A stretch of DNA of 64,000 nucleotides. It comes from Pontederia crassipes. Its lineage: Eukaryota > Streptophyta > Magnoliopsida > Commelinales > Pontederiaceae. Below are positions 24,841 through 64,000 of this stretch, piece after piece. Numbering within the stretch: the stretch's first letter is position 1; each line of letters starts with the position of its first letter. A program made the position numbers and the translations under genes. The notes beneath the pieces were generated by a model. That model saw only the letters and a list, made by a program, of their open reading frames with translations. It searched no databases and had not been told where the DNA came from. The stretch covers positions 56,572,547-56,636,546 of the forward strand of contig CM060194.1 of the NCBI GenBank assembly GCA_030549335.1, written 5' to 3'.

Positions 24841-24923
24841 GGTAAGAAAAAGCCTTCAGTTCCTAGTACTAATATCTCTTCCGGTTCTCTTGTGCAGGGA
24901 GGGATGCTTAACCATGGTTACAT

Positions 24924-28790: not shown

Positions 28791-29020
28791 GTCTGCGGTC
28801 TTTGCTTTCTGACATCATGGACTACCTCGAGCAGATTAAGCCTTATAAGTTACTTTTCGTCCCCGAATGTATAACTCTACAGCTCATCATTTAGCGTATT
28901 TTAGGCGCCAAAATGACGAGCATTTTTGGATGGATAGTCCTCCTCTTGTCCTCCATAGTTTTTTGTATCAGGACTCTATGTGCCTTACTTAAATTAATGC
29001 TAATATTTTTCAAAAAAAAA

Positions 29021-29274: not shown

Positions 29275-30750
29275 TTAATTAGTAATCTCGTCGGCCTTTT
29301 CTTGAATGAGCTTCCAAGTGGCCTCGACGTGCTTCATCTCCGTCAGGGTTGCACCAACGGCAAACCTGAGCACGAACATGCCGCCCACCACCCCGTGTGT
29401 CATGAAAGCGCGCCCGCTCGAGTTCACGGCGTCCAGCAGCTTGCGGTTGACGTCAATGGCGACGTCTCCGTCCCAACTCGGACGGAGACGGAAGCACACC
29501 AGAGCAAACCTCTGCGTCGCGACCACCTCGAACCTCTTGTCGCTTTTCACCAGTCTCTCGAACTGCTTCGCCATGGCGACGTCACTCCTGATGTGCTCCA
29601 CTAGGTTGACGACGCCGTACTTCCGGATGACTAACCAGAGCTTTAGAGCTCGGAAGCGACGGCTGAGCGCGATCTGCCAATCCTTGTAGTCCACCACTAG
29701 TTTCGCGTCAGAGGCGCTGTTCCTGAGGTACTCGGGGTCAGTTGACAGGGAGTCCACCAGTGCATTTGAGTCCTTGACCCATAGACAACAGCAGTCCGTG
29801 TTGGTGAGGAACCATTTATGCGTGTTCACGCTGATGGAGTCCGCTAGTTCGACGCCGTCAAAGTAGTGCCGGAACTCGGGGCATATGACCGCGCTTCCGG
29901 CGTAAGCAGAATCAACATGCAACCAAGCCCCGTACTCCTGAGCGACTTGGCCGAGTTCCAGTATCGGGTCCACGGCGCCCACTGTTGTGGTACCGACGGT
30001 TGCACACAGATAGAGCGGTACCAGTTCTCTATCGACGTCGGCTGCCATGGCCTCGCGAACGCTATCGCGAGTGAGAGCGTAGCCCGACGCAGCGGTCGTA
30101 GGGATCACGCGGAAGTTGGACGGCGGGATGCCGGTGATCTTAGACGCCTTCTGAACGGTTGAATGTGTGTGATCGGATACATAGACCACCAACTTAGTAA
30201 TGCCTTCATGGCCGATCTTGCAGAGCACCCTGTCACGAGCCGCAGCCAGGGTGCACACTACGGCCTCACACGTGGACCCATGCAAGACCCCGCCGCCACC
30301 TTGTCCGGAGGAGAAGAGAAAGGAGGGCGGGAGCTTAAGCATCTGGGCCATCCAATCCATGACCAAGTTCTCGAGCTCGGTGGCGGCGGGGGACGATATC
30401 CAGCTGAAGCCGACAACGCAGAAGCCCGAACAGAGCATCTCGCCGAGGAACCCTGCAGTGCTCGCGTTAGTTTGGAAGTAGGCAAAAAAGATTGGGCTCT
30501 GCCAATGGGTGAGCCCTGGGAGAACGTCCCTGCGGATGTCTTCGAGGACTGCGTCCAGCGGCTGGGGAAATAGTGGAGGCTGGTCGGGGAGAAGCTTGCG
30601 CAGGTATCCAGGCTCGACCTGGCTTCGGACCGGGTACTGCTCGACGTGGCGGTAGTAGTCGGCGATGAAGTCCACGACCACATGAGACTCCGCGGCAAAG
30701 TTGTCAAGGTTCAGGGGCTCGAAAGTGTCGAGTGGAAGAGTGCTCCCCAT
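29275..30750 (-). CDS. TYDC: tyrosine decarboxylase-like aromatic amino acid decarboxylase
   Basis: A single uninterrupted 491-residue frame, the usual length of plant group II PLP decarboxylases, which are typically intronless like this one. The first ATG is at 30748-30750 in a good context (GCCATGG). The open frame extends 13 codons upstream but begins without an ATG. Visible landmarks are SSPAATELE (about 120-127), the glycine-rich [13 protein letters not shown] (148-160), the cofactor-stacking His in DHTHS (about 196), HVDSAYAG with the ring-nitrogen Asp (280), and the PLP lysine in NTHKW (312). Tyr341 in DPEYL favours decarboxylation over aldehyde synthesis. Ser363 in ALSRRF, where tryptophan decarboxylases have Gly, favours phenolic substrates (tyrosine, DOPA). 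The product would be cytosolic tyramine or dopamine, feeding alkaloid or hydroxycinnamic-amide pathways. The substrate call is inferred from those two positions. GC-rich coding in AT-rich DNA. It is the only intact gene in the window. Confidence 0.93.
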
Positions 30751-35705: not shown

Positions 35706-36352
35706 CACTACAAGAAAAGTCGTATTTCCGACGGTTCATTTTCGATGGTCCGACATCCGTCTAAAATATCGACAGTTTTTTCGGCGGATCTTCCAAACCG
35801 TCGACATTTTCGTCGGATAATTTTCGACAGTTTTACCCATCTAAACTTTCGACGATTCTTAATTCGTCGAAAGGTTCCGTCGAAAATATTGACACTTCGA
35901 CGGTTATGACCGTCGATAATTTCGACAGTTTACCTAACCGTCGAAACTTCCAGCGGTCTGAACCGTCGCAATATTTCAACGTTGGTTCCGTACAATTATT
36001 GAACTTATCGACGATTTTGACCGTCGAAATTTGCGACGTTCGAAGCAATCGTCGATATTTCGGCGGTCATACCCGTCGAAATGTTATTAAATAAAATATT
36101 CTAGCTTAATTATTTTCGACGGTCTCAACCGTCGAAAATGGAAATTTATAATTTACACAAACTATAGATATGTTGATGTCTTGAAAATTTATTATTATGG
36201 GAATCGACGGCTAAAATCGTCGATATTTCGACGGTTTGAAGAACCGTCTAAACTATCGACAGTTTTGCCAGCGGATTTGAGCCGTCGAAATGCGAATTAA
36301 TATAATATTATATTTACCTATGTTGCGGCGGTTTTGACCGTCGAAAAGTGGT

Positions 36353-36362
36353 TATATAAATA
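36353..36362 (+). promoter_or_regulatory. CACTA promoter TATA box
   Basis: TATATAAATA follows the subterminal repeats and precedes the GC-rich leader at 36400. It is the expected position for the transposase promoter of a CACTA element. Confidence 0.5.
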
Positions 36363-36910
36363 CCCGACCCCGCTCTTACTTTTAACGTTTTGAACGTTCG
36401 TCCGCCGATACATCCGGCCGCCATTCGCGCGCGGCGGCCAGATCCGGCCGCCCTCCGCGCGCGGCGGCGGTCAGATCTGGCCGCCCTCCGCGCGGCGGCG
36501 GCCAGAAGAAACCATATCACGGCACACAGTTTTTTGCGAAGAAACGATCCAGCATCATCCATTGACATATGATTCTTTGAACATTTAACGTACTACAAAA
36601 CAATTAAGAAGCGTCAGCTATTTCAAGTCTGTTCATTTGTACAATGATGATCAATTGACGAAACTATGACACAAAGCTCATCATAAAAGAATGAAATTCG
36701 ACGGATCTATCTCGTTTCAAACCTCCAACCCAAGAGGTTCCATATCACAACTCAGTACTACATTCAGACACAAATTGAAAACGAAAAGAATGAATATATT
36801 GTTATGAATAAGAAAACATAAATGCCAAGGTACGACATCGTTCCGTGAAATCATAAGCACGGTTTCGTGGATTATATGTCCGCTATGTGTTGTAAGAAAA
36901 CAACTGATTG

Positions 36911-37340
36911 TTTATTATACAATGATAGATGTAAAAGAATTCCAACAAAGTAGTTCAAACTAAATTCATGCAATAACAAAGAAATTGGTGAATCTAACTT
37001 GCTCGGTTCCTCTGGATCTTATAACCCTCAGATTAACTCACGCAGCATGAAGAGTATTCCTCTGCTGCTCACTACTCATGCCGTGAAATGAGGACCAAGG
37101 ATTCTTCCATTTGCAATCTAAAAGACAGTGCAGCATCCGCTGATTGACTAGGTCCAATTCTTCTCCTAAATGTTTGGTCTCTCCCCAAATTATGTGAAGC
37201 TCTAGCTGCTATTGTGGTGCTATTTCTACTGTTGGTTCTGAGTGAACTATTTCTGTTGCTTGCTTCCACGGTGGTCGCGTGACGTGTTTCACTACTGTGT
37301 GAAACTGCAATTACAGCATCCTTCCTTGCCTCCACATCTT
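36911..37340 (-). pseudogene. probable captured 3' end of a host gene inside the CACTA element
   Basis: On the minus strand a frame of 87 codons (37335 down to 37072) ends with a normal stop. It is followed by AT-rich sequence with an AATAAA signal at 36911-36916, about 155 bases further on. The frame does not start with ATG and is preceded by GTTTCTGAAAG, which could be a splice acceptor, so it looks like a last exon. Its C-terminal phrase is SADAALSFRLQMEESLV, resembling short helical tails of some ubiquitin-pathway proteins, but I cannot name the gene. It lies antisense to the transposase. CACTA elements are known to pick up gene fragments. It could also be part of an unrecognised element. 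Confidence 0.45.
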
Positions 37341-37593
37341 TCAGAAACAGAAGTTGAATTGTGTTCCAAAAAGATAAAATTCAGATGACAACTGAAACAG
37401 CAAAGAGTCCATTGATTACATAGAGTAAATGTACATGTGTATATGTGTATGCTATCTCTATACCTAGCAGTATGATTAGTAAACATTAGCTAAACAATTT
37501 GTTCTTCTTCAGTTGTTTCATAGACTTTTTTTCTTTCCTTATACAATTTTGTATCACTGAAATTTTTGATGATTTGCAAATAATGTAGTCATT

Positions 37594-40500: not shown

Positions 40501-41107
40501 TGAAACTTGGTCGATCGGGAAGAAAACCGTGAACAGTGGAGTATGTGTCGTGGGATCCACGGACGGAGAAAATGAGCATGACTACTACGGTGTTCTCAAA
40601 GACATTATTCAGCTGCAATATACTGGAGGTAATAAAGTCACATTATTTGAGTATAATTGGTTTGATCCAAAGGAAAGGAGAGGAATGCAAGTTCACAAAG
40701 ATTTCAAAATAGTTGAAATACGTCACAATAGTTGTTATGATCGTTTTGATCCTTTCATTATTCCGTCTTCTACAAGACAAGTATATTATGTGCCATATCC
40801 GGAGAAGATCATGGACAAATCACAATGGTGGGTTGTAATAAAGACGAAGGCAAGAAGCAAGATAGAAGTTTATGGTGCATTGCAATGTGCCTTTCAAGAT
40901 GACTCGCAGACGTCTGTGGCCCCTATTGTCGACACCGAATTAGTCGACGATCTACAGGATTCGGAACACGTATTTGAAGACTTCGATAACGTCGAAAGAC
41001 AAAATGATGAAAAGGATTCGGACGAAGATGAATTTGAAACTACGATGACTTCTGATGATGATGATGATGACGGGTACCAGTCATGTGGAAATTCAGATGA
41101 TGAGTAA
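37594..41107 (+). pseudogene. CACTA transposase TNPD (Transposase_21), lightly damaged
   Basis: ATG at 37594. Domains run in the normal order: transposase-associated domain (37594-37880, with WMYKRN and the CPCLKY cysteines), Transposase_21 (about 38030-39720, with HNLDVMHIERNVFENV), DUF4218 (about 39740-40160, with FFDSMEHLLIHLP and YPFERYLNRIKR), and DUF4216 (40440-40900, with PVYFVNGYKFHT), then an acidic tail. Two introns keep GT-AG borders: 40160-40220 and 40324-40393. The frame changes once near 37980, and in-frame stops lie at 38511, 39081, 39195 and 39732. Two of these replace expected tryptophans. The enzyme would cut and rejoin CACTA ends. This copy is inactive as it stands. Confidence 0.85.
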
Positions 41108-42100
41108 AGGTGTCTTTACTTGTCGTCACGAATTATCAATTTTTTTTACCTTACGACTAGGATATTTTATTACGACTATTGTCATCTTATGGATTGTTCA
41201 TTTACGACTCATATTCATTTTGTTTGAGGCAATAGTTTGTTTGAGGCGTCAGCGATGCATGTGAACAAACAATCAGATCGACGGATGCTTGACGTGGACG
41301 ATGCATTCTTATATTCGCTACCATCTCGTGAGTGTTTGAAATAATGGTCAGAAGAATTTTTCGCAAAAGCTTATTCGAATTAATTTGTTTATTTTTTATA
41401 AGCGTCTCTGGATATTAGGAATTGGTTCTCGAGTTATACGTACAATTCCGTTCCTCAAGATGCAACACAAGACGTAGTCGAACATAGTCAGGTCGAGACG
41501 TTGTGACATTTGAATTTTTTGTCAATTGTGAATTTGACTTGGAATAAATTTTGTACTATGCAGATGTATCGATTTGTTAAAAGTAAAAATTTTGTACTAT
41601 GCAGGTGTACACCCACCTGGGGATGACAAAAATTTTCGAAAGTCATGAAGCCTTGTGTGTAATCCTCAATTGGGGCTTCGCTTGCGAGAATTTTTCTCTC
41701 CGCAGGGGCCAAAAATGGTCACTGAGTGACTTCGGAGATTAGAATGGAAATACATATCTTCACTCTGAGATACCTTGATCCTTGAAATTTTTATTATTTT
41801 TAAATTTTAATACTAGTTTAATAATTTTATTTTTTTAAAAAATATCATATGTGATTTTTAATACATGTATAATAAATTATTGTATTATTTTTAACTAGTT
41901 ATATTTCAATGATTTGGTATATTTTTATTATTTTTTATACTTATCTTATTATTTTTATACTTATTAATTATCTTATAAATAAAATAGTGGAAATTTTGGG
42001 GTGAGGATAAAACTAATCCCACCCCAAAAATCAAGGTCAGGGACAAAGGCAATAGTGGGGTGGCGGGTGACACCCGTACACCCACCCTTATTTTAATGGA
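41108..42100. other. region right of TNPD, AT-rich, with a possible small element
   Basis: The phrase MLDVDDAFLYSLPSR (41285-41330) followed by GTGAGTG looks like an exon end of a second CACTA gene. At 41545-41605 the word AATTTTGTACTATGCAG occurs twice, 41 bases apart. From about 41604 to 42085 the outer edges are faintly inverted (GTGTACACCCACC and GGGTGACACCCGTACACCC), possibly a small non-autonomous element. None is firm. Confidence 0.3.
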
Positions 42101-45406: not shown

Positions 45407-45640
45407 ACTACAAGAAAAATGATCTTTAACGACTAACCGAGGCAAAAAAATGATCATTATAAATAGTCAATAATGTTCAAAAATAAATATGAACATTATT
45501 AAATACATCATTAGCAAAAGATAAAAATACTCATCTTAAAAAAAATATTCCGATCGTTAAAATTAATTATTAATGACCATTTAAATTTATCGTCATTAAT
45601 TATAGACTTAGCGGAATAAAACTGAAACCCTCGGACCGGA
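45406..45640 (+). mobile_element. CACTA-type left terminus in unit 1
   Basis: CACTACAAGAAAAATG followed by subterminal words TTAACGAC, AATGACCATTTAAATT and similar. It is a different CACTA family from 35706. No matching right terminus is present in the unit. Confidence 0.6.
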
Positions 45641-46680
45641 ACTCATTTTTCCTCTCCTATCTCTTTCCTCTTCGTTTTTCCTCTCCGCTATCCGACGGTG
45701 CTCCTCTTTCTTTTCCTCTTAGTTTCTCATCTCTTTTCTTCGTAACTCCTCTCTCTTTTCCTCTTTGTTTCTCTCTCTTTTCCACTTTGTTTTTCTCTCT
45801 CTCTCTCCTGTCCATTCGTTTCTCCTCTCCGCTGATCAATGGCGATGAGAATCCGTCGACTTCGCACCGACCTCGTCGACCTGCGGCGACTTCCTTCAAG
45901 ACCGTCCCCCACAGATCTAGCCACCGCCGACCCCCTGGCCAGATCTATGACCCCGCCGACCTCGCCGACCCGCGGAGACCTCCTACAAGCCCATCCGCCA
46001 CAGATCTGCCCGTCGCCGACCCCCACGACCCCCGGTCAGATCTGCGACCCCGCCGACCTTGCCGACCTGCGGCGACCTCCTCCATGCCCATCCTTCACAT
46101 ATCTGCTCGCCACCGACGCCCGCGACCTCCTGTCACCAACGAGCCTGCCTCCCTGACGCCGACACTGGATCTCGTCCCTCAAATCTATCTCCTCTCCTAT
46201 CAACGCCGACGATGGACCATATTCGTGCGACCTTTGGCCAGCATGCCGCGACCCCCCCTCCCCCCGCCGATCTCCATGTGCCGCCTCGCCACCACGATCT
46301 CGCGCACCATCGAGCTCGCCCACCCCACCACTGCCGACTCGTGCACATTCTCTGCGGAGCTCACGCACCGCTGCCGTCGAGTTTGCTCGCCGCGCTGCCG
46401 CTGAACTCGTGCACCGCCGCCGCCGAGCTCGCCCACCTCCGAGCTTCGCCGCCAACCTCGAGCACGCCACATCCCTCGCCGATCACCGTGTGTTGCCCCG
46501 CCATCGCCGATCTTCGTGTGTCGCCCTGCCACCACCGATCTCGCGCACGGCTGCCACCGAGCTCGCTCACCTGCCGCTACCGATCTCCCCGCCCCGCCCT
46601 TCCCCGCTGCCGCCGATCTCCGTGTCTCGCCCCGCCACTGCCGATCTCACGCACTGCCGCTGCCATGAATCTTCGTGCAA
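45640..46680 (+). other. CT-rich leader and GC-rich exon-like block of unit 1
   Basis: A CT-rich leader (45645-45830) leads to ATG at 45839 and about 0.85 kb of GC-rich sequence that opens long frames on both strands. Much of it is a 97-bp minisatellite (copies from about 45860, 45940 and 46037, marked by CAGATCT...CCCCGCCGACC). A period of 97 shifts frame at each copy, so these frames are composition effects. Repeated TCGAGCTCGCCCACC-type words follow. The same layout is seen in the fold-back element. Copies lie at 53322-54362 and 61010-62050. Confidence 0.6.
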
Positions 46681-47270
46681 ACAATGCTAGAGGTGAGATT
46701 AATTGATGCACCATCTTTGTCACTGCATGTTGGTGGCTACGGAAATGCAAATGTGCTTCCATCTTTGACAACTCCTTCACACTGCCACCCAACAAATTAC
46801 TACACAATCAGATTAGCCGAGGATTTGAACGAAGCTATACGATGCTCTGGAAGGCACGGACGGCAGGCTGGCAGAAATGCAATGAGGATGCATGCTTCCT
46901 TGGAGGGACTCCGATAACAGCACCTAATTAGAGATAGACACAAGCTCGTGGATCGTAGGTCTGGCAACCCGCATCCATTCAGTATCCTCTTTGGAGCCAG
47001 AGGTTCAAGTGATAAAATATGGAATTACACCAAGCTCACAACACGGCATGCCTTGCTCAATCGCCATTTAAGAGAAGGAGCTCGCAAAGGGGCCCAATAC
47101 CCTGCTCACCCACATTCTAAGAGAAGCCAATCGTTGTGGCGACTGGTTAGCGAACTTAGTGCTCTAAGTCGAAGCCACAACCCAGCTTTACACAGCCACC
47201 TCCAAGCATACTCCTGTTCGGCGACATCATGGGACTCCACGTACCCCATTTTTAATTTCTAGAAGTCCAC
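46681..47270 (+). other. unidentified exon-like block of unit 1
   Basis: Starts near an AGGTGAGA splice-donor-like word. One reading frame (46675-47262) is open except for a single TAA at about 46915, with ordinary-looking amino acid composition. I do not recognise the product. It may be a captured gene fragment or a remnant of a CACTA accessory gene. Copies lie at 54363-54952 and 62051-62640. Confidence 0.35.
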
Positions 47271-48061
47271 TTAGTCCTAAGGCTTTTGCCTCTCTCAATC
47301 ACCGAAAAAACTTATAATAGAGCAAAACATCGAGATAAGGAACTGCTAGTGCATGTTGAGTGTCTCAAATTTGATGTTCTAATTAATTTTTTAAAAAAGT
47401 TAAATTATTAGAAAGAGTAATATTATTTTATATTCTTAATACTTCTTTTTACACGTAGATTGTTGACAATTTTGATCTAACCCAGTTCATCACGTGAATA
47501 ATAAATGAAAAAAAATATTTTTTTAATAAAAACTTAACGAAGTTTGAACTCTCGGACACTATGATATTACGTTAAATTTGATGTGCTAACTGATTTTTCT
47601 AAAAGTTTAAATTATTAAGAAGAGAAACATTATTTATTTTATATTTTTAGCTCCAATTATCAATTATATGCTTTTCATAATAGAGACCCGAGTCCGAATG
47701 TTTAAAGTTATTTCTTTTTAGCGTGAAAAAAATAAGTTGAAAAAAATATATGTTTATATGTTAAAATTCATATATTTTTTAATTACACCACATCATAATT
47801 TGAATTTAAAAATGAATAAAAAAATTAAAAATTATACAATGTCATGTTGTCTTTTTTTTCGTAAAAATAGATTTGATCGCAATATGATTTGCATATAAAT
47901 AAATGTGTGCACATCTTACAATAGAAACAATTTAGAAAATGCTATCCTCATACTTCAATTAAATATTTGATTATATTTCCATTACATATAAGTTAAATAG
48001 GAGTATATAAGCTAAAAAACATTCTTTTTGCTTTCTAGATAATTACGCATTATGTCTCTCC

Positions 48062-48063
<2 letters not shown>
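47271..48063. other. AT-rich interior of unit 1
   Basis: Contains two diverged copies of an approximately 75-bp word (TTGATGT(T/G)CTAA then TTAAATTATTA) near 47370 and 47575, and no gene. It ends at the TAA microsatellite. Confidence 0.45.
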
Positions 48064-48109
<46 letters not shown>

Positions 48110-50184
48110 CTATAAATTTTTAAAATGATATATACATTTGATGTGCAGGCCGAACCCAACGGACTATGGCCGATCAGGCCACCTGCAGCAAATTTGGCTG
48201 CCCGCAAGCTAAATCAGCCGCCTACAAACCGAATCTATCATTCAGCGGCTGATCCTACCTCCGATGGGAGACATCCATTGGACCACCACCTCCGTTTGAG
48301 TCCCATCAAAACCTTCGATGGGATTTGGTTGTCGGAAGTTTTGAAGGAGGTCTCCTTCGAAACTTCGGATGATTGCTTTTCGAACTTCTGATGGGTGTTT
48401 CCGTCGAAATATCGACGGATTTGTACATCCGTCAAAAAATTATTACCGATGATGATTTTTCTGATGATTGTCTTTTTATCCAAAAAGTTAATCGGAAACT
48501 TAATTTTTTATGGTTTTTATAAGATTTATGATGGATTTGTATGTAAAAACAATTAAAAATGTTATAATGGTCCAATGGAAGTGGCTGGAAGAAAAGTTGA
48601 AAAAGAAACTTTCCAGATTCGAAAATAAATTGAACAAATCGAGACAAAGTAGTCGAAAATAATGCAAAAATATGGAAAAAAGGACACAAGCTTGTTATTA
48701 AAATATGACAAGACTGGTTAACTAAAATAAGCCGGTTCAATGAGACAAACGAATCACTACTAGAAAAATGCTGAATCAGCCCGAAAATCGTCGGTAACGC
48801 AATTACCGACGGTTTTTCAATCGGAATCGATCCGTCAGAAAAACGCTCGTCGCAAATCGATTTGCGACGATCGAAAAAAATTCGTCGGAAATATCTACGG
48901 TCAGAACCGTCGGAAATATCGACGGTTAGAACCGTCAGAAAAGTCCCGACGGTTCGAACCGTCGACAGTTTCCGACGGTTGCAACTGCCGGAAAAGGTCG
49001 GCGGTTTGAACCGTAGAAAGTTTCCGACGGTTGCAGTCGCCGAAAAAGGCCAGCAGTTCGAACCGTCGAAAGTTTTCGACGGTCACAACTGTCGAAACTT
49101 TCAATGGTCGTCGCAACCGTCAATCTTTCGATGGTCGCAACCGTCGCAAAGAATTTTTTAAATATAAAAAAATTAGCGGCCGGATTGGGCCGCGGCCAGC
49201 TCCGGCCGCGGCCAAATCCGGCCGCCCACGGCAGGACTAGCGTTCGGATCCGGATCCGGCCGCCAGCGACTGGATCCGGCTGTTGATCGGCCGCGCGGCT
49301 GGATCCGGCCGCTGGAGGCCGGATCAGGCCGCTGGGGGCGGATCTGGCCGCCAGCGGTTGGATCCGGTCGCCAACGGTCGGAGAGAAAGAGAGAGAAAGA
49401 GAAAGAGAGATGTCGGCGAAGAGAGAGACGCCGGCAGGAGAGGGTCGTCGGCGGTCGATGCTTCACGTCCGGCCAGAGGCTCACCGGCCAGGAGAGGGAG
49501 AGGGAGACGGTCGGGAGAGGGAGACGGCCGGGAGAGGGAGGGAGAGAGGAGAGGAGGGAGGGTGATATATATATATATATATATATATATGTGGAAAATG
49601 GGAGAAAGCGAGAAAACAAAAAGAGCGCGGAATAATGAAATTTTAATTACCGACGTCTCTGGCCATCGGAAAAGTAAATATTAATTATTTTTAAAGTTAC
49701 CGACGGTTGTGACCGTCGAAAATATATTTAGTTATATATAATATTTTTTTACCGACGGTTTGGACCGTCGGTAATTGTGACGATTTGGACCGTCGCTAAT
49801 TATATTAATAAAATATTCCTCATATAATATTATTATATATTTACCGACGGTTACGACCATCGAAAACTACGGCAAATTTTGCGACGGATGGATATCCGTC
49901 GAAAATATCGACGTCCCTGATCGTCAAAAAAAAATAAATAATAATATAAAAAATTACATAATTTAATATTTTCTATCGTAACCGTCGAAAAATCCGTCGA
50001 AAAAATTAAATAATAATATAACAAATCACATAATTTATTTTTTTATTTCCGACGGTTGTAACCGTCGAAAAAGCCGTCGAAAAAAATTAAATAATAATAT
50101 AATAAATTACATAATTTATTTTTTAATTTCTGACGGTTCTGATAGGAACAATTATTTATTTGATAGAAACATAATTTATTTTTT
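47920..50184 (+). repeat. block A of unit 1 (long internal copy)
   Basis: Begins AATAGAAACAATTTAG. It holds the TAA microsatellite, a CACTA-type subterminal region (48125-48560), a spacer and a CACTA-type terminus at 48755 (CACTACTAGAAAAATG). Then come dense CGACGGT/ACCGTCG words (48780-49150), a CCGGCCGC-rich stretch (49170-49370), a GA-rich stretch with an AT microsatellite (49565-49590) and further subterminal words to about 50145. Block B repeats its first 1.3-1.5 kb. Unit 2 counterpart is 55602-57863. Unit 3 starts at 63290. Confidence 0.85.
48064..48109. repeat. (TAA)n microsatellite in block A of unit 1
   Basis: Counterparts of slightly different length lie at 55745-55788 and 63433-63476 (block A of units 2 and 3) and at 50329-50361 and 58007-58050 (block B). 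Confidence 0.95.
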
Positions 50185-50326
50185 AATAGAAACAATTTAG
50201 AAAATGCTATCCTCATACTTCAATTAAATATTTGATTATATTTCCATTACATATAAGTTAAATAGGAGTATATAACCTCAAAAACATTCTTTTTGCTTTC
50301 TAGATAATTACCTATTATGTCTCTCC

Positions 50327-50362
<36 letters not shown>

Positions 50363-51458
50363 GATCTATAAAATTTTAAAATAATATATACATTTGATGT
50401 GCAGGCCGAACCGAACGAACTATGGCCGATCAGGCCACCTGCAGCAAATTCGGCTGCCCGCAAGCTAAATCGGCCGCATGCAAACCGAATCTATCGTCAG
50501 CGGCTGATCCTACCTCGGATGGGAGACATCCATTGGACCACCACCTCCGTTTGAGTCCCATCAAAATCGTCGATGGGAAGCGATTGTTGGAAGTTTTGAA
50601 GGAGGTCTCTTTCGAAACTTCGGATGATTGCTTTTGGAACTTCTGACGGGTGTTTCCGTCAAAATATCGACGGATTTGTACATCCGTCAAAAAATTATTA
50701 CCGATGATGATTTTTCTGACGATTGTCTTTTTGTCCAAAAAGTTAATCGGAAACTTATTTTTTTATGGATTTTATAAGATTTATGACGGATTTGTATGTA
50801 AAAACAATTAAAAATGTTGTAATGGAAGTGGCCGGAAGAAAAGTTGAAAAAGAAACTTTCCAGATTCGAAAATAAATTGAACAAATCGAGACAAAGTAGT
50901 AAAAAATAATGTAAAAATATGGAAAAAGACACAAGATTGTTATTAAAATATGACAAGACTGGTTAACTAAAATAAGCCGGTTCAACGAGACAAACGAATC
51001 ACTACTAAAAAAATACTGATTACCGACCGTCAGCCCGAAAACCGTCGGTAACGCAATTACCGACGGTTTTTCAGTCGGAATCGATCCGTCGGAAAAACGC
51101 TCGTCGCAAATCGATTTGCGACGGTCGAAAAAAAATTCGTCAAAAATATCGACGGTCAGAACAAAAGTTTCCGCCGGTTGCAACCGTCGACAGTTTCCGA
51201 CAGTTTCGACAGTTTCCGACGGTTCGAACCGTCAAAAATTTTCGACGGTCGCAACTGTCGAAACTTTCGACGGTCGTCATGGCCGTCGATCTTTCGGCGG
51301 TCGCAACCGTCACAAAGAATTTTTTAAATATAAAAAAATTAGCGGCCGGATCGGGCCACGGCCAGCTCCGGCCGCGGCCAAATCCGGCCATCCGTGGCAG
51401 GACTGGCGTTCGGATCCGGATCCGACGGCTGATTGGCCGCCAGGCGGCCGGAGAGAAA
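50185..51458 (+). repeat. block B of unit 1 (shortened internal copy)
   Basis: Collinear with block A from its first base, with diverged sequence and several internal deletions, including part of the CGACGGT region. It contains its own CACTA-type terminus at 51000 (CACTACTAAAAAAATAC). It departs from A after GGAGAGAAAGAG, where the 40-bp decarboxylase fragment begins. Unit 2 counterpart is 57864-59146. Confidence 0.85.
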
Positions 51459-51498
51459 GAGCTTCCAAGTGGCCTCGACGTGCTTCATCTCCGTCAGG
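51459..51498 (+). pseudogene. 40-bp fragment of the decarboxylase gene in array unit 1
   Basis: Identical over 40 of 40 bases to 29308-29347, which encodes residues 468-481 of the decarboxylase on the minus strand. The fragment lies in the same chromosomal orientation as the gene, so the array's plus strand is antisense to the mRNA. It sits exactly between block B and the LTR-like piece, with a few bases of shared AGAG sequence at the left junction. Confidence 0.95.
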
Positions 51499-53089
51499 AT
51501 TTAATAAAATCTCGATACTTTCAAGTAGCAAAATGAAAAGTGAAGGCATAAGTGACATTATACAATGTATCTTTGATCACCCACAAGGATTATAAAATCG
51601 ATATTACATATTATGTCAATCCTTAATTGGCAACATTCACATATTAATTTGATCACAATCATCATTATTGTGTGATTATTTATACCTTTGAATAAAAATA
51701 TTGAAACACAAGTTGAACATGTTAACTCATGTCAAGTTAAAATTTTAACCTTCTTTAGTTCATGCTTTATATGAAAATCTTGAAACATATGTTATATGGA
51801 AATACATGAAAAATAATATATGTCAATATTTTTAAAAGTGAGATTAAGCTTGCATAATTGAATAATTATATACGCATATATGAATTTATTTCTATTAGGA
51901 CAATTGCTTGAATCCATTGAGACATAAAGTAATGCACAAAATACTAGCAAAAGTACAAGGTCGAATTAAATAATCAAAAGTGATAGTGTTAAACTCACGA
52001 GAAGTAGTTTTATCTTATATTTTATCTTAAATTACCTAGAAATGAATAAGATATGTTTTAAAGAAGAAAAAAGGATTTAAAAATGAAGGTTTAATCCAAT
52101 CAAAAGTCAAAGTAAATCAATAAAAGTTTCTCCACATAAGATAAGGATAGGGTGTAACTTAGCACCCCCATCAATTGGAATATATAAAACAAATCCAAAT
52201 TACAAGGGAAAGGATGATTGAAGATAAATGACTCAACTTAGGGCTTAACTATTTGATCTAAGTATTAGAGAGCATTTGTTCAACCGAATCAATTTCTAAC
52301 TAATATTACCTAAGATTTATTAATGATGCAATTCTATCTCAAAAACATCTCAATCAATTGAGTTAATAATCCCACACATATCAAAATCTCAATCAAGTAT
52401 GTAGAGATAGGATATCAAAACTTTATTTCATAAACAAAAAGTTATCTAGGAGTCCAACGAATCCAATTCGATAGTATCAATTTATTAAAATTAAGATAAA
52501 ATCGAGAACACAGCTCGAAAGATCACATAAAATCATTTAAATTCTAATAAATTCAAAATAATAGTATATTAAAGATCTAGCAGGGTTCAACAAAGTTAAT
52601 TCTGAGACGTGGGAAAATAAGAGAAACAAAAAAAATAACTCCTGGACTTCTAAACACTTCTGGACAAATATCCATCGAGTAGATAGCCATAGATTCTCTT
52701 GTAGTTTTTGCAATGAAGCTCTGAACTCATTGCTTGGATGATTGGAAAGTGAATTATGGCCCTATTTAAAAGAGAACCCAGATCCATGAATGTTTTATTA
52801 CACAGGCAATGCATTTCGATATGCCACTAATTAAATATCATTCATTGAGAGTGAATCTTGATTTTTGTGAGACACACATACCATTTTGTGAAGGATATGA
52901 CCTATTTTGCATGGCGATGCAACTTCTTATTCAGTCTGATATTTGACGTATCCATCAAACACAATTCATTTTTGTGATCCCCAATTATTCTAAGATTTAA
53001 ACAAATAATTTTTAATTAGTCTATTTTGGACATTATGAGGTAATAATAATATGTAATTAGTTAACTTTGATAAAGATTAATTGGGAATT
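51499..53089 (-). mobile_element. LTR-like fragment closing unit 1
   Basis: From about 51930 the order of words (AATGCACAAAATACTAGC, AAGTACAAGG, GTGTTAAACTCACGAG) follows the Tat-type LTR at 298-2003 in the same orientation. It is clearly a different family and lacks a recognisable far end. 51499-51929 is unassigned AT-rich DNA. It is a fossil fragment with no coding content. Unit 2 counterpart is 59187-60777. Confidence 0.45.
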
Positions 53090-55743
53090 ACTACAAGAAA
53101 AATGATCTTTAACGACTAACCGAGGCAAAAAAATGATCATTATAAATAGTCAATAATGTTCAAAAATAAATATGAACATTATTAAATACATCATTAGCAA
53201 AAGATAAAAATACTCATCTTAAAAAAATATTCCGATCGTTAAAATTAATTATTAATGACCATTTAAATTTATAGTCATTAATTATAGACTTAGCGGAATA
53301 AAACTGAAACCCTCGGACCGGAACTCATTTTTCCTCTCCTATCTCTTTCCTCTTCGTTTTTCCTCTCCGCTATCCGACGGTGCTCCTCTTTCTTTTCCTC
53401 TTAGTTTCTCATCTCTTTTCTTCGTAACTCCTCTCTCTTTTCCTCTTTGTTTCTCTCTCTTTTCCACTTTGTTTTTCTCTCTCTCTCTCCTGTCCATTCG
53501 TTTCTCCTCTCCGCTGATCAATGGCGATGAGAATCCGTCGACTTCGCACCGACCTCGTCGACCTGCGGCGACTTCCTTCAAGACCGTCCCCCACAGATCT
53601 AGCCACCGCCGACCCCCTGGCCAGATCTATGACCCCGCCGACCTCGCCGACCCGCGGAGACCTCCTACAAGCCCATCCGCCACAGATCTGCCCGTCGCCG
53701 ACCCCCACGACCCCCGGTCAGATCTGCGACCCCGCCGACCTTGCCGACCTGCGGCGACCTCCTCCATGCCCATCCTTCACATATCTGCTCGCCACCGACG
53801 CCCGCGACCTCCTGTCACCAACGAGCCTGCCTCCCTGACGCCGACACTGGATCTCGTCCCTCAAATCTATCTCCTCTCCTATCAACGCCGACGATGGACC
53901 ATATTCGTGCGACCTTTGGCCAGCATGCCGCGACCCCCCCTCCCCCCGCCGATCTCCATGTGCCGCCTCGCCACCACGATCTCGCGCACCATCGAGCTCG
54001 CCCACCCCACCACTGCCGACTCGTGCACATTCTCTGCGGAGCTCACGCACCGCTGCCGTCGAGTTTGCTCGCCGCGCTGCCGCTGAACTCGTGCACCGCC
54101 GCCGCCGAGCTCGCCCACCTCCGAGCTTCGCCGCCAACCTCGAGCACGCCACATCCCTCGCCGATCACCGTGTGTTGCCCCGCCATCGCCGATCTTCGTG
54201 TGTCGCCCTGCCACCACCGATCTCGCGCACGGCTGCCACCGAGCTCGCTCACCTGCCGCTACCGATCTCCCCGCCCCGCCCTTCCCCGCTGCCGCCGATC
54301 TCCGTGTCTCGCCCCGCCACTGCCGATCTCACGCACTGCCGCTGCCATGAATCTTCGTGCAAACAATGCTAGAGGTGAGATTAATTGATGCACCATCTTT
54401 GTCACTGCATGTTGGTGGCTACGGAAATGCAAATGTGCTTCCATCTTTGACAACTCCTTCACACTGCCACCCAACAAATTACTACACAATCAGATTAGCC
54501 GAGGATTTGAACGAAGCTATACGATGCTCTGGAAGGCACGGACGGCAGGCTGGCAGAAATGCAATGAGGATGCATGCTTCCTTGGAGGGACTCCGATAAC
54601 AGCACCTAATTAGAGATAGACACAAGCTCGTGGATCGTAGGTCTGGCAACCCGCATCCATTCAGTATCCTCTTTGGAGCCAGAGGTTCAAGTGATAAAAT
54701 ATGGAATTACACCAAGCTCACAACACGGCATGCCTTGCTCAATCGCCATTTAAGAGAAGGAGCTCGCAAAGGGGCCCAATACCCTGCTCACCCACATTCT
54801 AAGAGAAGCCAATCGTTGTGGCGACTGGTTAGCGAACTTAGTGCTCTAAGTCGAAGCCACAACCCAGCTTTACACAGCCACCTCCAAGCATACTCCTGTT
54901 CGGCGACATCATGGGACTCCACGTACCCCATTTTTAATTTCTAGAAGTCCACTTAGTCCTAAGGCTTTTGCCTCTCTCAATCACCGAAAAAACTTATAAT
55001 AGAGCAAAACATCGAGATAAGGAACTGCTAGTGCATGTTGAGTGTCTCAAATTTGATGTTCTAATTAATTTTTTAAAAAAGTTAAATTATTAGAAAGAGT
55101 AATATTATTTTATATTCTTAATACTTCTTTTTACACGTAGATTGTTGACAATTTTGATCTAACCCAGTTCATCACGTGAATAATAAATGAAAAAAAATAT
55201 TTTTTTAATAAAAACTTAACGAAGTTTGAACTCTCGGACACTATGATATTACGTTAAACTTGATGTACTAACTGATTTTTCTAAAAGTTTAAATTATTAA
55301 GAAGAGAAACATTATTTATTTTATATTTTTAGCTCCAATTATCAATTATATGCTTTTCATAATAGAGACCCGAGTCCGAATGTTTAAAGTTATTTCTTTT
55401 TAGCGTGAAAAAAATAAGTTGAAAAAAATATATGTTTATATGTTAAAATTCATATATTTTTTAATTACACCACATCATAATTTGAATTTAAAAATGAATA
55501 AAAAAATTAAAAATTATACAATGTCATGTTGTCTTTTTTTTCGTAAAAATAGATTTGATCGCAATATGATTTGCATATAAATAAATGTGTGCACATCTTA
55601 CAATAGAAACAATTTAGAAAATGCTATCCTCATACTTCAATTAAATATTTGATTATATTTCCATTACATATAAGTTAAATAGGAGTATATAAGCTAAAAA
55701 ACATTCTTTTTGCTTTCTAGATAATTACGCATTATGTCTCTCC

Positions 55744-55788
<45 letters not shown>

Positions 55789-58005
55789 CTATAAATTTTT
55801 AAAATGATATATACATTTGATGTGCAGGCCGAACCCAACGGACTATGGCCGATCAGGCCACCTGCAGCAAATTTGGCTGCCCGCAAGCTAAATCAGCCGC
55901 CTACAAACCGAATCTATCATTCAGCGGCTGATCCTACCTCCGATGGGAGACATCCATTGGACCACCACCTCCGTTTGAGTCCCATCAAAACCTTCGATGG
56001 GATTTGGTTGTCGGAAGTTTTGAAGGAGGTCTCCTTCGAAACTTCGGATGATTGCTTTTCGAACTTCTGATGGGTGTTTCCGTCGAAATATCGACGGATT
56101 TGTACATCCGTCAAAAAATTATTACCGATGATGATTTTTCTGATGATTGTCTTTTTATCCAAAAAGTTAATCGGAAACTTAATTTTTTATGGTTTTTATA
56201 AGATTTATGATGGATTTGTATGTAAAAACAATTAAAAATGTTATAATGGTCCAATGGAAGTGGCTGGAAGAAAAGTTGAAAAAGAAACTTTCCAGATTCG
56301 AAAATAAATTGAACAAATCGAGACAAAGTAGTCGAAAATAATGCAAAAATATGGAAAAAAGGACACAAGCTTGTTATTAAAATATGACAAGACTGGTTAA
56401 CTAAAATAAGCCGGTTCAATGAGACAAACGAATCACTACTAGAAAAATGCTGAATCAGCCCGAAAATCGTCGGTAACGCAATTACCGACGGTTTTTCAAT
56501 CGGAATCGATCCGTCAGAAAAACGCTCGTCGCAAATCGATTTGCGACGATCGAAAAAAATTCGTCGGAAATATCTACGGTCAGAACCGTCGGAAATATCG
56601 ACGGTTAGAACCGTCAGAAAAGTCCCGACGGTTCGAACCGTCGACAGTTTCCGACGGTTGCAACTGCCGGAAAAGGTCGGCGGTTTGAACCGTAGAAAGT
56701 TTCCGACGGTTGCAGTCGCCGAAAAAGGCCAGCAGTTCGAACCGTCGAAAGTTTTCGACGGTCACAACTGTCGAAACTTTCAATGGTCGTCGCAACCGTC
56801 AATCTTTCGATGGTCGCAACCGTCGCAAAGAATTTTTTAAATATAAAAAAATTAGCGGCCGGATTGGGCCGCGGCCAGCTCCGGCCGCGGCCAAATCCGG
56901 CCGCCCACGGCAGGACTAGCGTTCGGATCCGGATCCGGCCGCCAGCGACTGGATCCGGCTGTTGATCGGCCGCGCGGCTGGATCCGGCCGCTGGGGGCCG
57001 GATCAGGCCGCTGGGGGCCGGATCTGGCCGCCAGCGGTTGGATCCGGTCGCCAACGGTCGGAGAGAAAGAGAGAGAAAGAGAAAGAGAGAGATGTCGGCG
57101 AAGAGAGAGACGCCGGCAGGAGAGGGTCGTCGGCGGTCGATGCTTCACGTCCGGCCAGAGGCTCACCGGCCAGGAGAGGGAGAGGGAGACGGTCGGGAGA
57201 GGGAGACGGCCGGGAGAGGGAGGGAGAGAGGAGAGGAGGGAGGGTGATATATATATATATATATATATGTGGAAAATGGGAGAAAGCGAGAAAACAAAAA
57301 GAGCGCGGAATAACGAAATTTTAATTACCGACGTCTCTGGCCATCGGAAAAGTAAATATTAATTATTTTTAAAGTTACCGACGGTTGTGACCGTCGAAAA
57401 TATATTTAGTTATATATAATATTTTTTTACCGACGGTTTGGACCGTCGGTAATTGTGACGATTTGGACCGTCGCTAATTATATTAATAAAATATTCCTCA
57501 TATAATATTATTATATATTTACCGACGGTTACGACCATCGGAAACTACGGCAAATTTTGCGACGGATGGATATCCGTCGAAAATATCGACGTCCCTGATC
57601 GTCAAAAAAAAAATAAATAATAATATAAAAAATTACATAATTTAATATTTTCTATCGTAACCGTCGAAAAATCCGTCGAAAAAATTAAATAATAATATAA
57701 CAAATCACATAATTTATTTTTTTATTTCCGACGGTTGTAACCGTCGAAAAAGCCGTCGAAAAAAATTAAATAATAATATAATAAATTACATAATTTATTT
57801 TTTAATTTCTGACGGTTCTGATAGGAACAATTATTTATTTGATAGAAACATAATTTATTTTTTAATAGAAACAATTTAGAAAATGCTATCCTCGTACTTC
57901 AATTAAATATTTGATTATATTTCCATTACATATAAGTTAAATAGGAGTATATAACCTCAAAAACATTCTTTTTGCTTTCTAGATAATTACCTATTATGTC
58001 TCTCC

Positions 58006-58050
<45 letters not shown>

Positions 58051-60777
58051 GATCTATAAAATTTTAAAATAATATATACATTTGATGTGCAGGCCGAACC
58101 GAACGAACTATGGCCGATCAGGCCACCTGCAGCAAATTCGGCTGCCCGCAAGCTAAATCGGCCGCATGCAAACCGAATCTATCGTCAGCGGCTGATCCTA
58201 CCTCGGATGGGAGACATCCATTGGACCACCACCTCCGTTTGAGTCCCATCAAAATCGTCGATGGGAAGCGATTGTTGGAAGTTTTGAAGGAGGTCTCTTT
58301 CGAAACTTCGGATGATTGCTTTTGGAACTTCTGACGGGTGTTTCCGTCAAAATATCGACGGATTTGTACATCCGTCAAAAAATTATTACCGATGATGATT
58401 TTTCTGACGATTGTCTTTTTGTCCAAAAAGTTAATCGGAAACTTAATTTTTTATGGATTTTATAAGATTTATGACGGATTTGTATGTAAAAACAATTAAA
58501 AATGTTGTAATGGAAGTGGCCGGAAGAAAAGTTGAAAAAGAAACTTTCCAGATTCGAAAATAAATTGAACAAATCGAGACAAAGTAGTAAAAAATAATGT
58601 AAAAATATGGAAAAAGACACAAGATTGTTATTAAAATATGACAAGACTGGTTAACTAAAATAAGCCGGTTCAACGAGACAAACGAATCACTACTAAAAAA
58701 ATACTGATTACCGACCGTCAGCCCGAAAACCGTCGGTAACGCAATTACCGACGGTTTTTCAGTCGGAATCGATCCGTCGGAAAAACGCTCGTCGCAAATC
58801 GATTTGCGACGGTCGAAAAAAAATTCGTCAAAAATATCGACGGTCAGAACAAAAGTTTCCGCCGGTTGCAACCGTCGACAGTTTCCGACAGTTTCGACAG
58901 TTTCCGACGGTTCGAACCGTCAAAAATTTTCGACGGTCGCAACTGTCGAAACTTTCGACGGTCGTCATGGCCGTCGATCTTTCGGCGGTCGCAACCGTCA
59001 CAAAGAATTTTTTAAATATAAAAAAATTAGCGGCCGGATCGGGCCACGGCCAGCTCCGGCCGCGGCCAAATCCGGCCATCCGTGGCAGGACTGGCGTTCG
59101 GATCCGGATCCGACGGCTGATTGGCCGCCAGGCGGCCGGAGAGAAAGAGCTTCCAAGTGGCCTCGACGTGCTTCATCTCCGTCAGGATTTAATAAAATCT
59201 CGATACTTTCAAGTAGCAAAATGAAAAGTGAAGGCATAAGTGACATTATACAATGTATCTTTGATCACCCACAAGGATTATAAAATCGATATTACATATT
59301 ATGTCAATCCTTAATTGGCAACATTCACATATTAATTTGATCACAATCATCATTATTGTGTGATTATTTATACCTTTGAATAAAAATATTGAAACACAAG
59401 TTGAACATGTTAACTCATGTCAAGTTAAAATTTTAACCTTCTTTAGTTCATGCTTTATATGAAAATCTTGAAACATATGTTATATGGAAATACATGAAAA
59501 ATAATATATGTCAATATTTTTAAAAGTGAGATTAAGCTTGCATAATTGAATAATTATATACGCATATATGAATTTATTTCTATTAGGACAATTGCTTGAA
59601 TCCATTGAGACATAAAGTAATGCACAAAATACTAGCAAAAGTACAAGGTCGAATTAAATAATCAAAAGTGATAGTGTTAAACTCACGAGAAGTAGTTTTA
59701 TCTTATATTTTATCTTAAATTACCTAGAAATGAATAAGATATGTTTTAAAGAAGAAAAAAGGATTTAAAAATGAAGGTTTAATCCAATCAAAAGTCAAAG
59801 TAAATCAATAAAAGTTTCTCCACATAAGATAAGGATAGGGTGTAACTTAGCACCCCCATCAATTGGAATATATAAAACAAATCCAAATTACAAGGGAAAG
59901 GATGATTGAAGATAAATGACTCAACTTAGGGCTTAACTATTTGATCTAAGTATTAGAGAGCATTTGTTCAACCGAATCAATTTCTAACTAATATTACCTA
60001 AGATTTATTAATGATGCAATTCTATCTCAAAAACATCTCAATCAATTGAGTTAATAATCCCACACATATCAAAATCTCAATCAAGTATGTAGAGATAGGA
60101 TATCAAAACTTTATTTCATAAACAAAAAGTTATCTAGGAGTCCAACGAATCCAATTCGATAGTATCAATTTATTAAAATTAAGATAAAATCGAGAACACA
60201 GCTCGAAAGATCACATAAAATCATTTAAATTCTAATAAATTCAAAATAATAGTATATTAAAGATCTAGCAGGGTTCAACAAAGTTAATTCTGAGACGTGG
60301 GAAAATAAGAGAAACAAAAAAAATAACTCCTGGACTTCTAAACACTTCTGGACAAATATCCATCGAGTAGATAGCCATAGATTCTCTTGTAGTTTTTGCA
60401 ATGAAGCTCTGAACTCATTGCTTGGATGATTGGAAAGTGAATTATGGCCCTATTTAAAAGAGAACCCAGATCCATGAATGTTTTATTACACAGGCAATGC
60501 ATTTCGATATGCCACTAATTAAATATCATTCATTGAGAGTGAATCTTGATTTTTGTGAGACACACATACCATTTTGTGAAGGATATGACCTATTTTGCAT
60601 GGCGATGCAACTTCTTATTCAGTCTGATATTTGACGTATCCATCAAACACAATTCATTTTTGTGATCCCCAATTATTCTAAGATTTAAACAAATAATTTT
60701 TAATTAGTCTATTTTGGACATTATGAGGTAATAATAATATGTAATTAGTTAACTTTGATAAAGATTAATTGGGAATT
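53090..60777 (+). repeat. array unit 2 (7,688 bp)
   Basis: Same order as unit 1: leader and GC-rich block 53322-54362, exon-like block 54363-54952, TAA microsatellite 55745-55788, block A 55602-57863 with a CACTA-type terminus at 56434, block B 57864-59146 with a terminus at 58688, decarboxylase fragment 59147-59186, LTR-like piece 59187-60777. It shares with unit 3 the base changes at 53272 (TATAGTCATT for TATCGTCATT) and near 55258 (AAACTTG for AAATTTG). Confidence 0.9.
59147..59186 (+). pseudogene. 40-bp fragment of the decarboxylase gene in array unit 2
   Basis: The same 40 bases as 51459-51498, again identical to 29308-29347, with identical junctions. It was copied as part of the unit. 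Confidence 0.95.
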
Positions 60778-63431
60778 ACTACAAGAAAAATGATCTTTAA
60801 CGACTAACCGAGGCAAAAAAATGATCATTATAAATAGTCAATAATGTTCAAAAATAAATATGAACATTATTAAATACATCATTAGCAAAAGATAAAAATA
60901 CTCATCTTAAAAAAATATTCCGATCGTTAAAATTAATTATTAATGACCATTTAAATTTATAGTCATTAATTATAGACTTAGCGGAATAAAACTGAAACCC
61001 TCGGACCGGAACTCATTTTTCCTCTCCTATCTCTTTCCTCTTCGTTTTTCCTCTCCGCTATCCGACGGTGCTCCTCTTTCTTTTCCTCTTAGTTTCTCAT
61101 CTCTTTTCTTCGTAACTCCTCTCTCTTTTCCTCTTTGTTTCTCTCTCTTTTCCACTTTGTTTTTCTCTCTCTCTCTCCTGTCCATTCGTTTCTCCTCTCC
61201 GCTGATCAATGGCGATGAGAATCCGTCGACTTCGCACCGACCTCGTCGACCTGCGGCGACTTCCTTCAAGACCGTCCCCCACAGATCTAGCCACCGCCGA
61301 CCCCCTGGCCAGATCTATGACCCCGCCGACCTCGCCGACCCGCGGAGACCTCCTACAAGCCCATCCGCCACAGATCTGCCCGTCGCCGACCCCCACGACC
61401 CCCGGTCAGATCTGCGACCCCGCCGACCTTGCCGACCTGCGGCGACCTCCTCCATGCCCATCCTTCACATATCTGCTCGCCACCGACGCCCGCGACCTCC
61501 TGTCACCAACGAGCCTGCCTCCCTGACGCCGACACTGGATCTCGTCCCTCAAATCTATCTCCTCTCCTATCAACGCCGACGATGGACCATATTCGTGCGA
61601 CCTTTGGCCAGCATGCCGCGACCCCCCCTCCCCCCGCCGATCTCCATGTGCCGCCTCGCCACCACGATCTCGCGCACCATCGAGCTCGCCCACCCCACCA
61701 CTGCCGACTCGTGCACATTCTCTGCGGAGCTCACGCACCGCTGCCGTCGAGTTTGCTCGCCGCGCTGCCGCTGAACTCGTGCACCGCCGCCGCCGAGCTC
61801 GCCCACCTCCGAGCTTCGCCGCCAACCTCGAGCACGCCACATCCCTCGCCGATCACCGTGTGTTGCCCCGCCATCGCCGATCTTCGTGTGTCGCCCTGCC
61901 ACCACCGATCTCGCGCACGGCTGCCACCGAGCTCGCTCACCTGCCGCTACCGATCTCCCCGCCCCGCCCTTCCCCGCTGCCGCCGATCTCCGTGTCTCGC
62001 CCCGCCACTGCCGATCTCACGCACTGCCGCTGCCATGAATCTTCGTGCAAACAATGCTAGAGGTGAGATTAATTGATGCACCATCTTTGTCACTGCATGT
62101 TGGTGGCTACGGAAATGCAAATGTGCTTCCATCTTTGACAACTCCTTCACACTGCCACCCAACAAATTACTACACAATCAGATTAGCCGAGGATTTGAAC
62201 GAAGCTATACGATGCTCTGGAAGGCACGGACGGCAGGCTGGCAGAAATGCAATGAGGATGCATGCTTCCTTGGAGGGACTCCGATAACAGCACCTAATTA
62301 GAGATAGACACAAGCTCGTGGATCGTAGGTCTGGCAACCCGCATCCATTCAGTATCCTCTTTGGAGCCAGAGGTTCAAGTGATAAAATATGGAATTACAC
62401 CAAGCTCACAACACGGCATGCCTTGCTCAATCGCCATTTAAGAGAAGGAGCTCGCAAAGGGGCCCAATACCCTGCTCACCCACATTCTAAGAGAAGCCAA
62501 TCGTTGTGGCGACTGGTTAGCGAACTTAGTGCTCTAAGTCGAAGCCACAACCCAGCTTTACACAGCCACCTCCAAGCATACTCCTGTTCGGCGACATCAT
62601 GGGACTCCACGTACCCCATTTTTAATTTCTAGAAGTCCACTTAGTCCTAAGGCTTTTGCCTCTCTCAATCACCGAAAAAACTTATAATAGAGCAAAACAT
62701 CGAGATAAGGAACTGCTAGTGCATGTTGAGTGTCTCAAATTTGATGTTCTAATTAATTTTTTAAAAAAGTTAAATTATTAGAAAGAGTAATATTATTTTA
62801 TATTCTTAATACTTCTTTTTACACGTAGATTGTTGACAATTTTGATCTAACCCAGTTCATCACGTGAATAATAAATGAAAAAAAATATTTTTTTAATAAA
62901 AACTTAACGAAGTTTGAACTCTCGGACACTATGATATTACGTTAAACTTGATGTGCTAACTGATTTTTCTAAAAGTTTAAATTATTAAGAAGAGAAACAT
63001 TATTTATTTTATATTTTTAGCTCCAATTATCAATTATATGCTTTTCATAATAGAGACCCGAGTCCGAATGTTTAAAGTTATTTCTTTTTAGCGTGAAAAA
63101 AATAAGTTGAAAAAAATATATGTTTATATGTTAAAATTCATATATTTTTTAATTACACCACATCATAATTTGAATTTAAAAATGAATAAAAAAATTAAAA
63201 ATTATACAATGTCATGTTGTCTTTTTTTTCGTAAAAATAGATTTGATCGCAATATGATTTGCATATAAATAAATGTGTGCACATCTTACAATAGAAACAA
63301 TTTAGAAAATGCTATCCTCATACTTCAATTAAATATTTGATTATATTTCCATTACATATAAGTTAAATAGGAGTATATAAGCTAAAAAACATTCTTTTTG
63401 CTTTCTAGATAATTACGCATTATGTCTCTCC

Positions 63432-63476
<45 letters not shown>

Positions 63477-64000
63477 CTATAAATTTTTAAAATGATATAT
63501 ACATTTGATGTGCAGGCCGAACCCAACGGACTATGGCCGATCAGGCCACCTGCAGCAAATTTGGCTGCCCGCAAGCTAAATCAGCCGCCTACAAACCGAA
63601 TCTATCATTCAGCGGCTGATCCTACCTCCGATGGGAGACATCCATTGGACCACCACCTCCGTTTGAGTCCCATCAAAACCTTCGATGGGATTTGGTTGTC
63701 GGAAGTTTTGAAGGAGGTCTCCTTCGAAACTTCGGATGATTGCTTTTCGAACTTCTGATGGGTGTTTCCGTCGAAATATCGACGGATTTGTACATCCGTC
63801 AAAAAATTATTACCGATGATGATTTTTCTGATGATTGTCTTTTTATCCAAAAAGTTAATCGGAAACTTAATTTTTTATGGTTTTTATAAGATTTATGATG
63901 GATTTGTATGTAAAAACAATTAAAAATGTTATAATGGTCCAATGGAAGTGGCTGGAAGAAAAGTTGAAAAAGAAACTTTCCAGATTCGAAAATAAATTGA
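60778..64000 (+). repeat. array unit 3, cut by the window end
   Basis: Covers the CACTA-type left end, leader and GC-rich block (61010-62050), exon-like block (62051-62640), AT-rich interior, TAA microsatellite (63433-63476) and the first 0.7 kb of block A (from 63290). Confidence 0.9.

Follow-up and report, generated by a model that had tools for sequence, protein, structure and literature searches.

A 40-bp exact piece of a tyrosine decarboxylase-type gene, probably templated filler DNA, at a truncated CACTA element in a tandem array of Pontederia crassipes

RESULTS

Organization of the locus

The window analyzed here is a stretch of 64,000 nucleotides of Pontederia crassipes DNA (C12:56572547-56636546) from an assembly of 1.13 Gb in 43 contigs. 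It harbors a tyrosine decarboxylase-type gene and tandem units in which CACTA transposon sequence is followed by an exact 40-bp piece of the gene, the first such piece being ca. 22 kb from its source (Table 1). The encoded protein belongs to the Pfam family Pyridoxal_deC (PF00282; E 2e-111) and its best match of solved structure is tyrosine/dopa decarboxylase 6eem (E 1.5e-204). The 40-bp piece encodes 13 residues near the C-terminus of the decarboxylase.

Table 1. Features in and next to the window, numbered from its first nucleotide; a slash marks an edge or junction
Feature	Position	Strand	Remarks
Tyrosine decarboxylase-type gene, source of the piece	29275..30750	-	open 491-aa frame, one terminal stop
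Template stretch for the 40-bp piece	29308..29347	+	flanks AAT/GAG and AGG/GTT
Tandem unit 1, 7,683 bp	45407..53089	+	starts one base inside CACTACAAG end at 45406
Copy A, flank upstream of the CACTA insertion, also on C11	47920..48754	+	C11 alignment
Copy A, non-autonomous CACTA (CACTACTAGAAAAA...), without 3' end	48755..50142	+	relative L035 complete
Insert at the joint of A and A', 42 bp	50143..50184	+	
Copy A', second copy of flank and CACTA 5' part	50185..51461	+	cut off at ...GAGAAAGAG
Probable 40-bp decarboxylase filler	51459..51498	+	edges GAG and AGG common to neighbors; exact match
Ancestral local sequence after the fragment	51496..53089	+	collinear with C11:33806067-33804486
Tandem unit 2, 7,688 bp	53090..60777	+	junction GGGAATTACTA/CAAG, 4-bp microhomology ACTA
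Same 40-bp filler (probable), unit 2	59147..59186	+	exact match
Tandem unit 3	60778..64000, on past the window to ~68478	+	common ACTA (68479-68482) comes next

A self-comparison of 154 kb showed that the array consists of three head-to-tail units, of which the third lies partly outside the window. The element ending at 45406, where the first unit starts, is called CACTA-like on its end sequence alone. The parents of the tandem joint read GGGAATTACTA/GATAAAG at the end of unit 3 and GTGTCACTA/CAAG at the start of unit 1, with ACTA common to both. The three units differ at 11 SNPs, of which 4 are found in unit 1 only, 4 in unit 2 only and 3 in unit 3 only. They also differ in length at 10 places; several of these are simple repeats, and one reflects the chosen cut of unit 3. 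Each pair of units differs by 7-8 base changes per ~7.7 kb, or 0.1%. With a plant substitution rate near 6.5e-9 per site per year, this would place the tripling at an age of the order of 0.1 million years. An origin of the array as a rolled-out CACTA element was rejected, for at its right end the unit consists of local DNA whose continuation is found on C11, and the joint has nothing but ACTA in common with the CACTA end.

Elsewhere in the window, a very AT-rich tandem repeat with a period of ~208 or 419 bp occupies positions 9116-10136. Just downstream of the decarboxylase gene a segment of ~6 kb (22900-29020) is absent from C11; it contains two open frames with matches to reverse transcriptase (RVT_1) and appears to be a LINE insertion. 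On C11, the gene corresponding to the decarboxylase gene of the window (C11:33848150-33852390) is interrupted by ~2.8 kb. At 35706-41700 a CACTA end (CACTACAAG) precedes open frames with matches to Transposase_21 (E 3.4e-66) and DUF4216, and the element is thus of the autonomous type. The first 720 bp of this element are 94% identical, in inverted orientation, to the end of another CACTA at 71455-72176 beyond the window. A single large CACTA running from 35705 to 72176 was rejected because C11 is collinear inside this span and because 69427-72175 (window numbering, beyond the window on C12) is a separate CACTA insertion, with a TTT target-site duplication and an empty site on C11.

The 40-bp piece and its source

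The sequences 51459-51498 and 59147-59186 are identical to 29308-29347 in 40 of 40 bases, all on the plus strand, and the identity with the gene extends 0 bases beyond either edge. The same 40 bases occur in unit 3, beyond the window at C12:56639394-56639433. The identity noticed in an earlier note on this DNA was thus reproduced, as was the presence of the piece in every unit of the array. The outermost 3 bases on either side are present in the neighboring blocks as well, which leaves 34 bases that come from the gene alone.

A pattern search of the assembly with the 40-mer, allowing up to 3 mismatches, gave six places. Four are exact, namely the gene in the window and the three array units, and the other two are decarboxylase paralogues on C11 with 2 mismatches each. 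The reversed pattern, used as a control at the same mismatch limit, gave 0 matches in the assembly. The match is therefore non-random and not due to chance, as the earlier note had argued. In a local scan of 154 kb for exact matches of at least 22 bp, 105 remained after removal of low-complexity matches, matches with both ends inside the array and partners less than 1 kb apart. Thirty of these link the array to sequence outside it; three are the decarboxylase piece, and the outside partners of the remaining 27 all fall within 76.0-78.8 kb of the window numbering, a region with CACTA ends at 75959 and 78359.

The assembly was also searched with the full gene. This search returned 12 rows: eight for seven close decarboxylase copies, one weaker match on C7 and three fragments. 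In such DNA searches only the top candidates are scored and very frequent words are passed over, so that an absence weighs less in them than in the pattern search. The seven close copies are distributed over C12 (two), C11 (three, one of them split by an insertion), C7 (one) and C8 (one). Within the 40 bases the three C11 copies have 2, 2 and 5 mismatches, and the C7 and C8 copies did not turn up within 3 mismatches when the assembly was searched with the 40-mer. At 73297, outside the window, lies the other C12 copy, 6.4 kb past the unit 3 fragment and nearer to it than the gene in the window; its version of the 40 bases has 5 mismatches. Among the seven close family members the exact 40 bases are found in the window's gene only. 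Because the nearer copy and the other paralogues are inexact, the window's gene is the best source, and a different paralogue as donor, including the copy at 73297, was rejected. The proposal in the earlier note that the neighboring gene was the template withstood this search for a nearer or longer-matching paralogue, and the genome search that it had suggested revealed no further gene with the exact 40 bases among the close copies.

The CACTA element and its internal duplication

Within each unit, the stretch 47920-49391 (copy A) is repeated as 50185-51461 (copy A'). The two copies differ by 4.8% in the flank part and by 9.9% in the CACTA part. L035, the one CACTA relative that was examined end to end, reads CACTACTAG...CTTGTAGTG over 1,789 bp with TTA on both sides, and thus has the terminal repeats and the 3-bp target-site duplication of a CACTA element.

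The joint of A and A' is occupied by a 42-bp insert. Positions 50169-50187, which reach three bases into A', equal 50109-50127, a 19-bp match located 60 bp upstream. Sixteen bases of the match fall inside the insert; in 1000 random resamples that kept the neighbor frequencies of the insert the mean was 9.8 and the maximum 15, and 0 of 1000 reached 16, which is a thin margin. The insert was probably also templated, from local sequence. With the 42-bp insert at the start of A' and the decarboxylase fragment at its end, the duplicated stretch is bordered by an insertion on either side.

Positions 51030-51110 of A' have 81 exact bases in common with the CACTA at 76005 beyond the window, more than expected from the overall divergence; this identity possibly arose by gene conversion. 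A derivation of A' from the CACTA at 75959, suggested by the same 81 bases, is not favored because A' and A have the insertion flank GAGACAAACGAAT in common, although local gene conversion may have taken place.

Comparison with the C11 site

A block on C11 (~33.77-33.88 Mb, reversed) is collinear with the array's two flanks and also with portions of the unit. It contains the sequence that follows the fragment, but neither the CACTA element nor the 40-bp fragment. The post-fragment sequence is 89% identical on C11; over 51499-53085 there are 62 mismatches in 1,518 aligned bases (4.1%) and 126 gap columns. C11 also has ~270 bp, located between the point of CACTA insertion and the sequence after the fragment, that are missing at the C12 site, where the 3' part of the CACTA element is absent as well. 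Since C11 retains a collinear site with the same order of flanks and without element or fragment, the unit was assembled in place. All three units have the same junctions, in agreement with the earlier view that the unit was built near the gene before it was amplified.

The flank copies in A and A' (including 47920-48754) deviate from C11 in 129 and 123 of 704 positions (18%), with 162 and 143 gap columns. This divergence is far above the 4.1% found after the fragment. The excess may stem from poor alignment, gene conversion or uneven decay.

The block directly after the fragment had been described as an LTR-like piece. This description did not hold: the block is the C11-collinear segment and thus old local DNA, and an LTR at the fragment junction was rejected. 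An old dispersed repeat of ~70% identity is present in every unit but begins only 440 bp past the start of the block (51939-52419). It was found in at least 36 other places among the best 40 of 267 candidates scored, some of these matches being partial.

Microhomology at the junctions

At the left edge copy A reads GAGAAAGAG/AGAG, the unit GAGAAAGAG/CTTCC and the gene AATGAG/CTTCC, so that GAG is common to the element and the gene. The CACTA relatives L035 and L036, on C7 and C12, also read GAGAAAGAG/AGAG. At the right edge the gene has GTCAGG/GTT, the unit GTCAGG/ATTTAATAAAATC (ATTT...) and C11 GAGAGG/ATTTAATAAAATC, and AGG is thereby common to the gene and the local DNA, where the C12 parental sequence is taken from C11. 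Microhomology thus amounts to 3 bp at each fragment edge and to 4 bp (ACTA) at the tandem junction. Random joins of the same parents gave at least 3 bp in 4.9% and 4.2% of cases and at least 4 bp in 1.6%, with a joint frequency of 3e-5 in a simulation that was done after the junctions had been seen and that treats them as independent. Alignments obtained independently end at the same edges. When the fragment is query 61-100, two upstream matches stop at query 63 and the C11 match starts at 98.

DISCUSSION

The observations are best explained if the 40 bases are templated filler DNA, very probably left by a template-switching repair that made use of microhomology at the CACTA element, after which the whole unit was tripled. 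An exact nuclear copy with one exact source, microhomology at the switch points and loss of flanking DNA relative to C11 are all present. The scenario would start with insertion of a CACTA element next to the decarboxylase gene cluster. We infer that a double-strand break or a collapsed replication fork then occurred at the element. Repair may have proceeded by polymerase-theta end joining, microhomology-mediated break-induced replication or synthesis-dependent strand annealing. At GAG, synthesis would have jumped to the gene, 22 kb away, and taken a copy of 40 bases from it; a return to local DNA at AGG would have been accompanied by loss of the 3' part of the element and ~270 bp of flank. 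The same or an earlier event would have produced the second copy of 1.3 kb of flank and element, with the 42-bp insert at its start. Much later, the 7.7-kb stretch would have been tandemly duplicated across the 4-bp ACTA and then brought to three copies. Template switching had been proposed in the earlier note from the position of the fragment between two unrelated blocks, and the 3-bp microhomology at both edges, the linked duplication and deletion and the second templated-looking insert speak for it. The distance to the template and the existence of a nearer, ill-fitting decarboxylase copy count against this explanation.

Whether the duplication and the filler arose together is less clear. 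In a variant compatible with templated filler, the A/A' duplication is older and a younger break brought the deletion and the 40-bp insertion; we consider this a serious possibility that falls somewhat short of an even chance. The divergence between A and A' next to an unchanged fragment favors two events and counts against one. If the filler were as old as the duplication, the chance of zero changes in 40 bases would be roughly 0.02-0.4. Inserts at both ends of the duplicated stretch, on the other hand, are what a single event explains, and the numbers do not decide.

Other origins of the fragment fit less well. It might be the remnant of a longer decarboxylase gene, duplicated or retroposed and mostly lost since, in a region that is rich in such genes, with two decarboxylase copies on C12 and three on C11. 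The gene search, however, aligned only 47 bases per unit, the C11 counterpart site has no decarboxylase sequence, and microhomology at two edges together with a perfect match suits a short insertion better; we regard a remnant as very improbable. Capture of the fragment inside a mobile Pack-CACTA, with which it would have arrived, is suggested by the CACTA sequence that it adjoins and by the two CACTA copies lying close together in the same orientation, an arrangement needed by the model proposed for such elements (PMC13317346, PMC8903248). Yet the unit has CACTA 5' ends only and no exact 3' end. The nearest 3'-end motif, at 52694 with 2 mismatches, belongs to the C11-collinear segment, 1.2 kb beyond the fragment; a second one, at 47594, has 3 mismatches. 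What follows the fragment is old local DNA, and no pair of CACTA ends with a 3-bp target-site duplication encloses the fragment in the unit. Nor does the 40-mer occur in the assembly, within 3 mismatches, beyond the gene, the units and the two C11 genes, so that apart from decarboxylase genes its copies are confined to the three tandem units. Without an exact 3' end in the unit and without other copies, Pack-CACTA capture was rejected as highly improbable. Finally, tandem repeats are prone to misassembly and our evidence is the assembly itself; the units nevertheless bear private differences, with the fragment in each of them, and an assembly artefact is a most improbable explanation.

Templated filler of this kind is known from plants. 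Among 94 transposon excisions in rice, 58 had filler, which measured 1-123 bp with a mean of 13; CACTA elements account for only 2 entries in the table of excisions (PMC4423477). In tobacco and Arabidopsis, the filler at induced breaks was 1-36 bp long and mostly came from sequence close by, and one insertion in Arabidopsis consisted of a tandem duplication together with filler (PMC3289645). For templated insertions in Arabidopsis polymerase theta was suggested, and many match sequence within 100 bp of the break (PMC5217109). The locus described here resembles the filler at excision and break sites in having a short exact nuclear copy at a join, flank deletion, microhomology and a nearby tandem duplication (PMC4423477, PMC3289645). 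The 40 bp exceed the rice mean of 13 and lie just beyond the 1-36 bp range, but inside the 1-123 bp range of rice (PMC4423477, PMC3289645). Unlike in those examples, the template is 22 kb off and in coding sequence, and the scar was tripled later (PMC4423477, PMC3289645). The element, moreover, is truncated rather than cleanly excised as in the rice cases (PMC4423477). With the insertions ascribed to polymerase theta the locus shares a templated insertion with microhomology, here apparently from more than one template, whereas the 22-kb distance sets it apart; the likeness is one of sequence (PMC5217109). Pack-CACTA and transduplication likewise place CACTA sequence beside a gene piece, but the present fragment is neither enclosed in a complete element nor found at another locus (PMC8903248, PMC13317346). 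No paper matched a literature query that combined filler DNA, template switching and microhomology with transposons and plant genomes.

Since the gene is encoded on the minus strand, RNA made from the plus strand of the array would be complementary to the decarboxylase mRNA over the 40 bases; as to strand, the antisense orientation pointed out earlier is correct. None of the features described above indicates a function of the fragment. That the tripled fragment is actually transcribed from the plus strand to yield antisense or small RNAs perfectly matching the decarboxylase mRNA appears extremely improbable. If it were true, a repair scar would have turned into a regulator of an amine pathway gene, inside repeat-rich CACTA sequence.

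The event itself is of a known and ordinary kind, documented here with unusual completeness, and the 22-kb distance to the template is its one unusual feature. The locus offers a natural repair scar that can be read in one genome, with its best source, a scar-free site, the homologies at the switch points and a later amplification. It may therefore serve as a test case for how far plant repair reaches for templates, 22 kb in this instance, and for how breaks at transposons move pieces of coding sequence into non-coding DNA.
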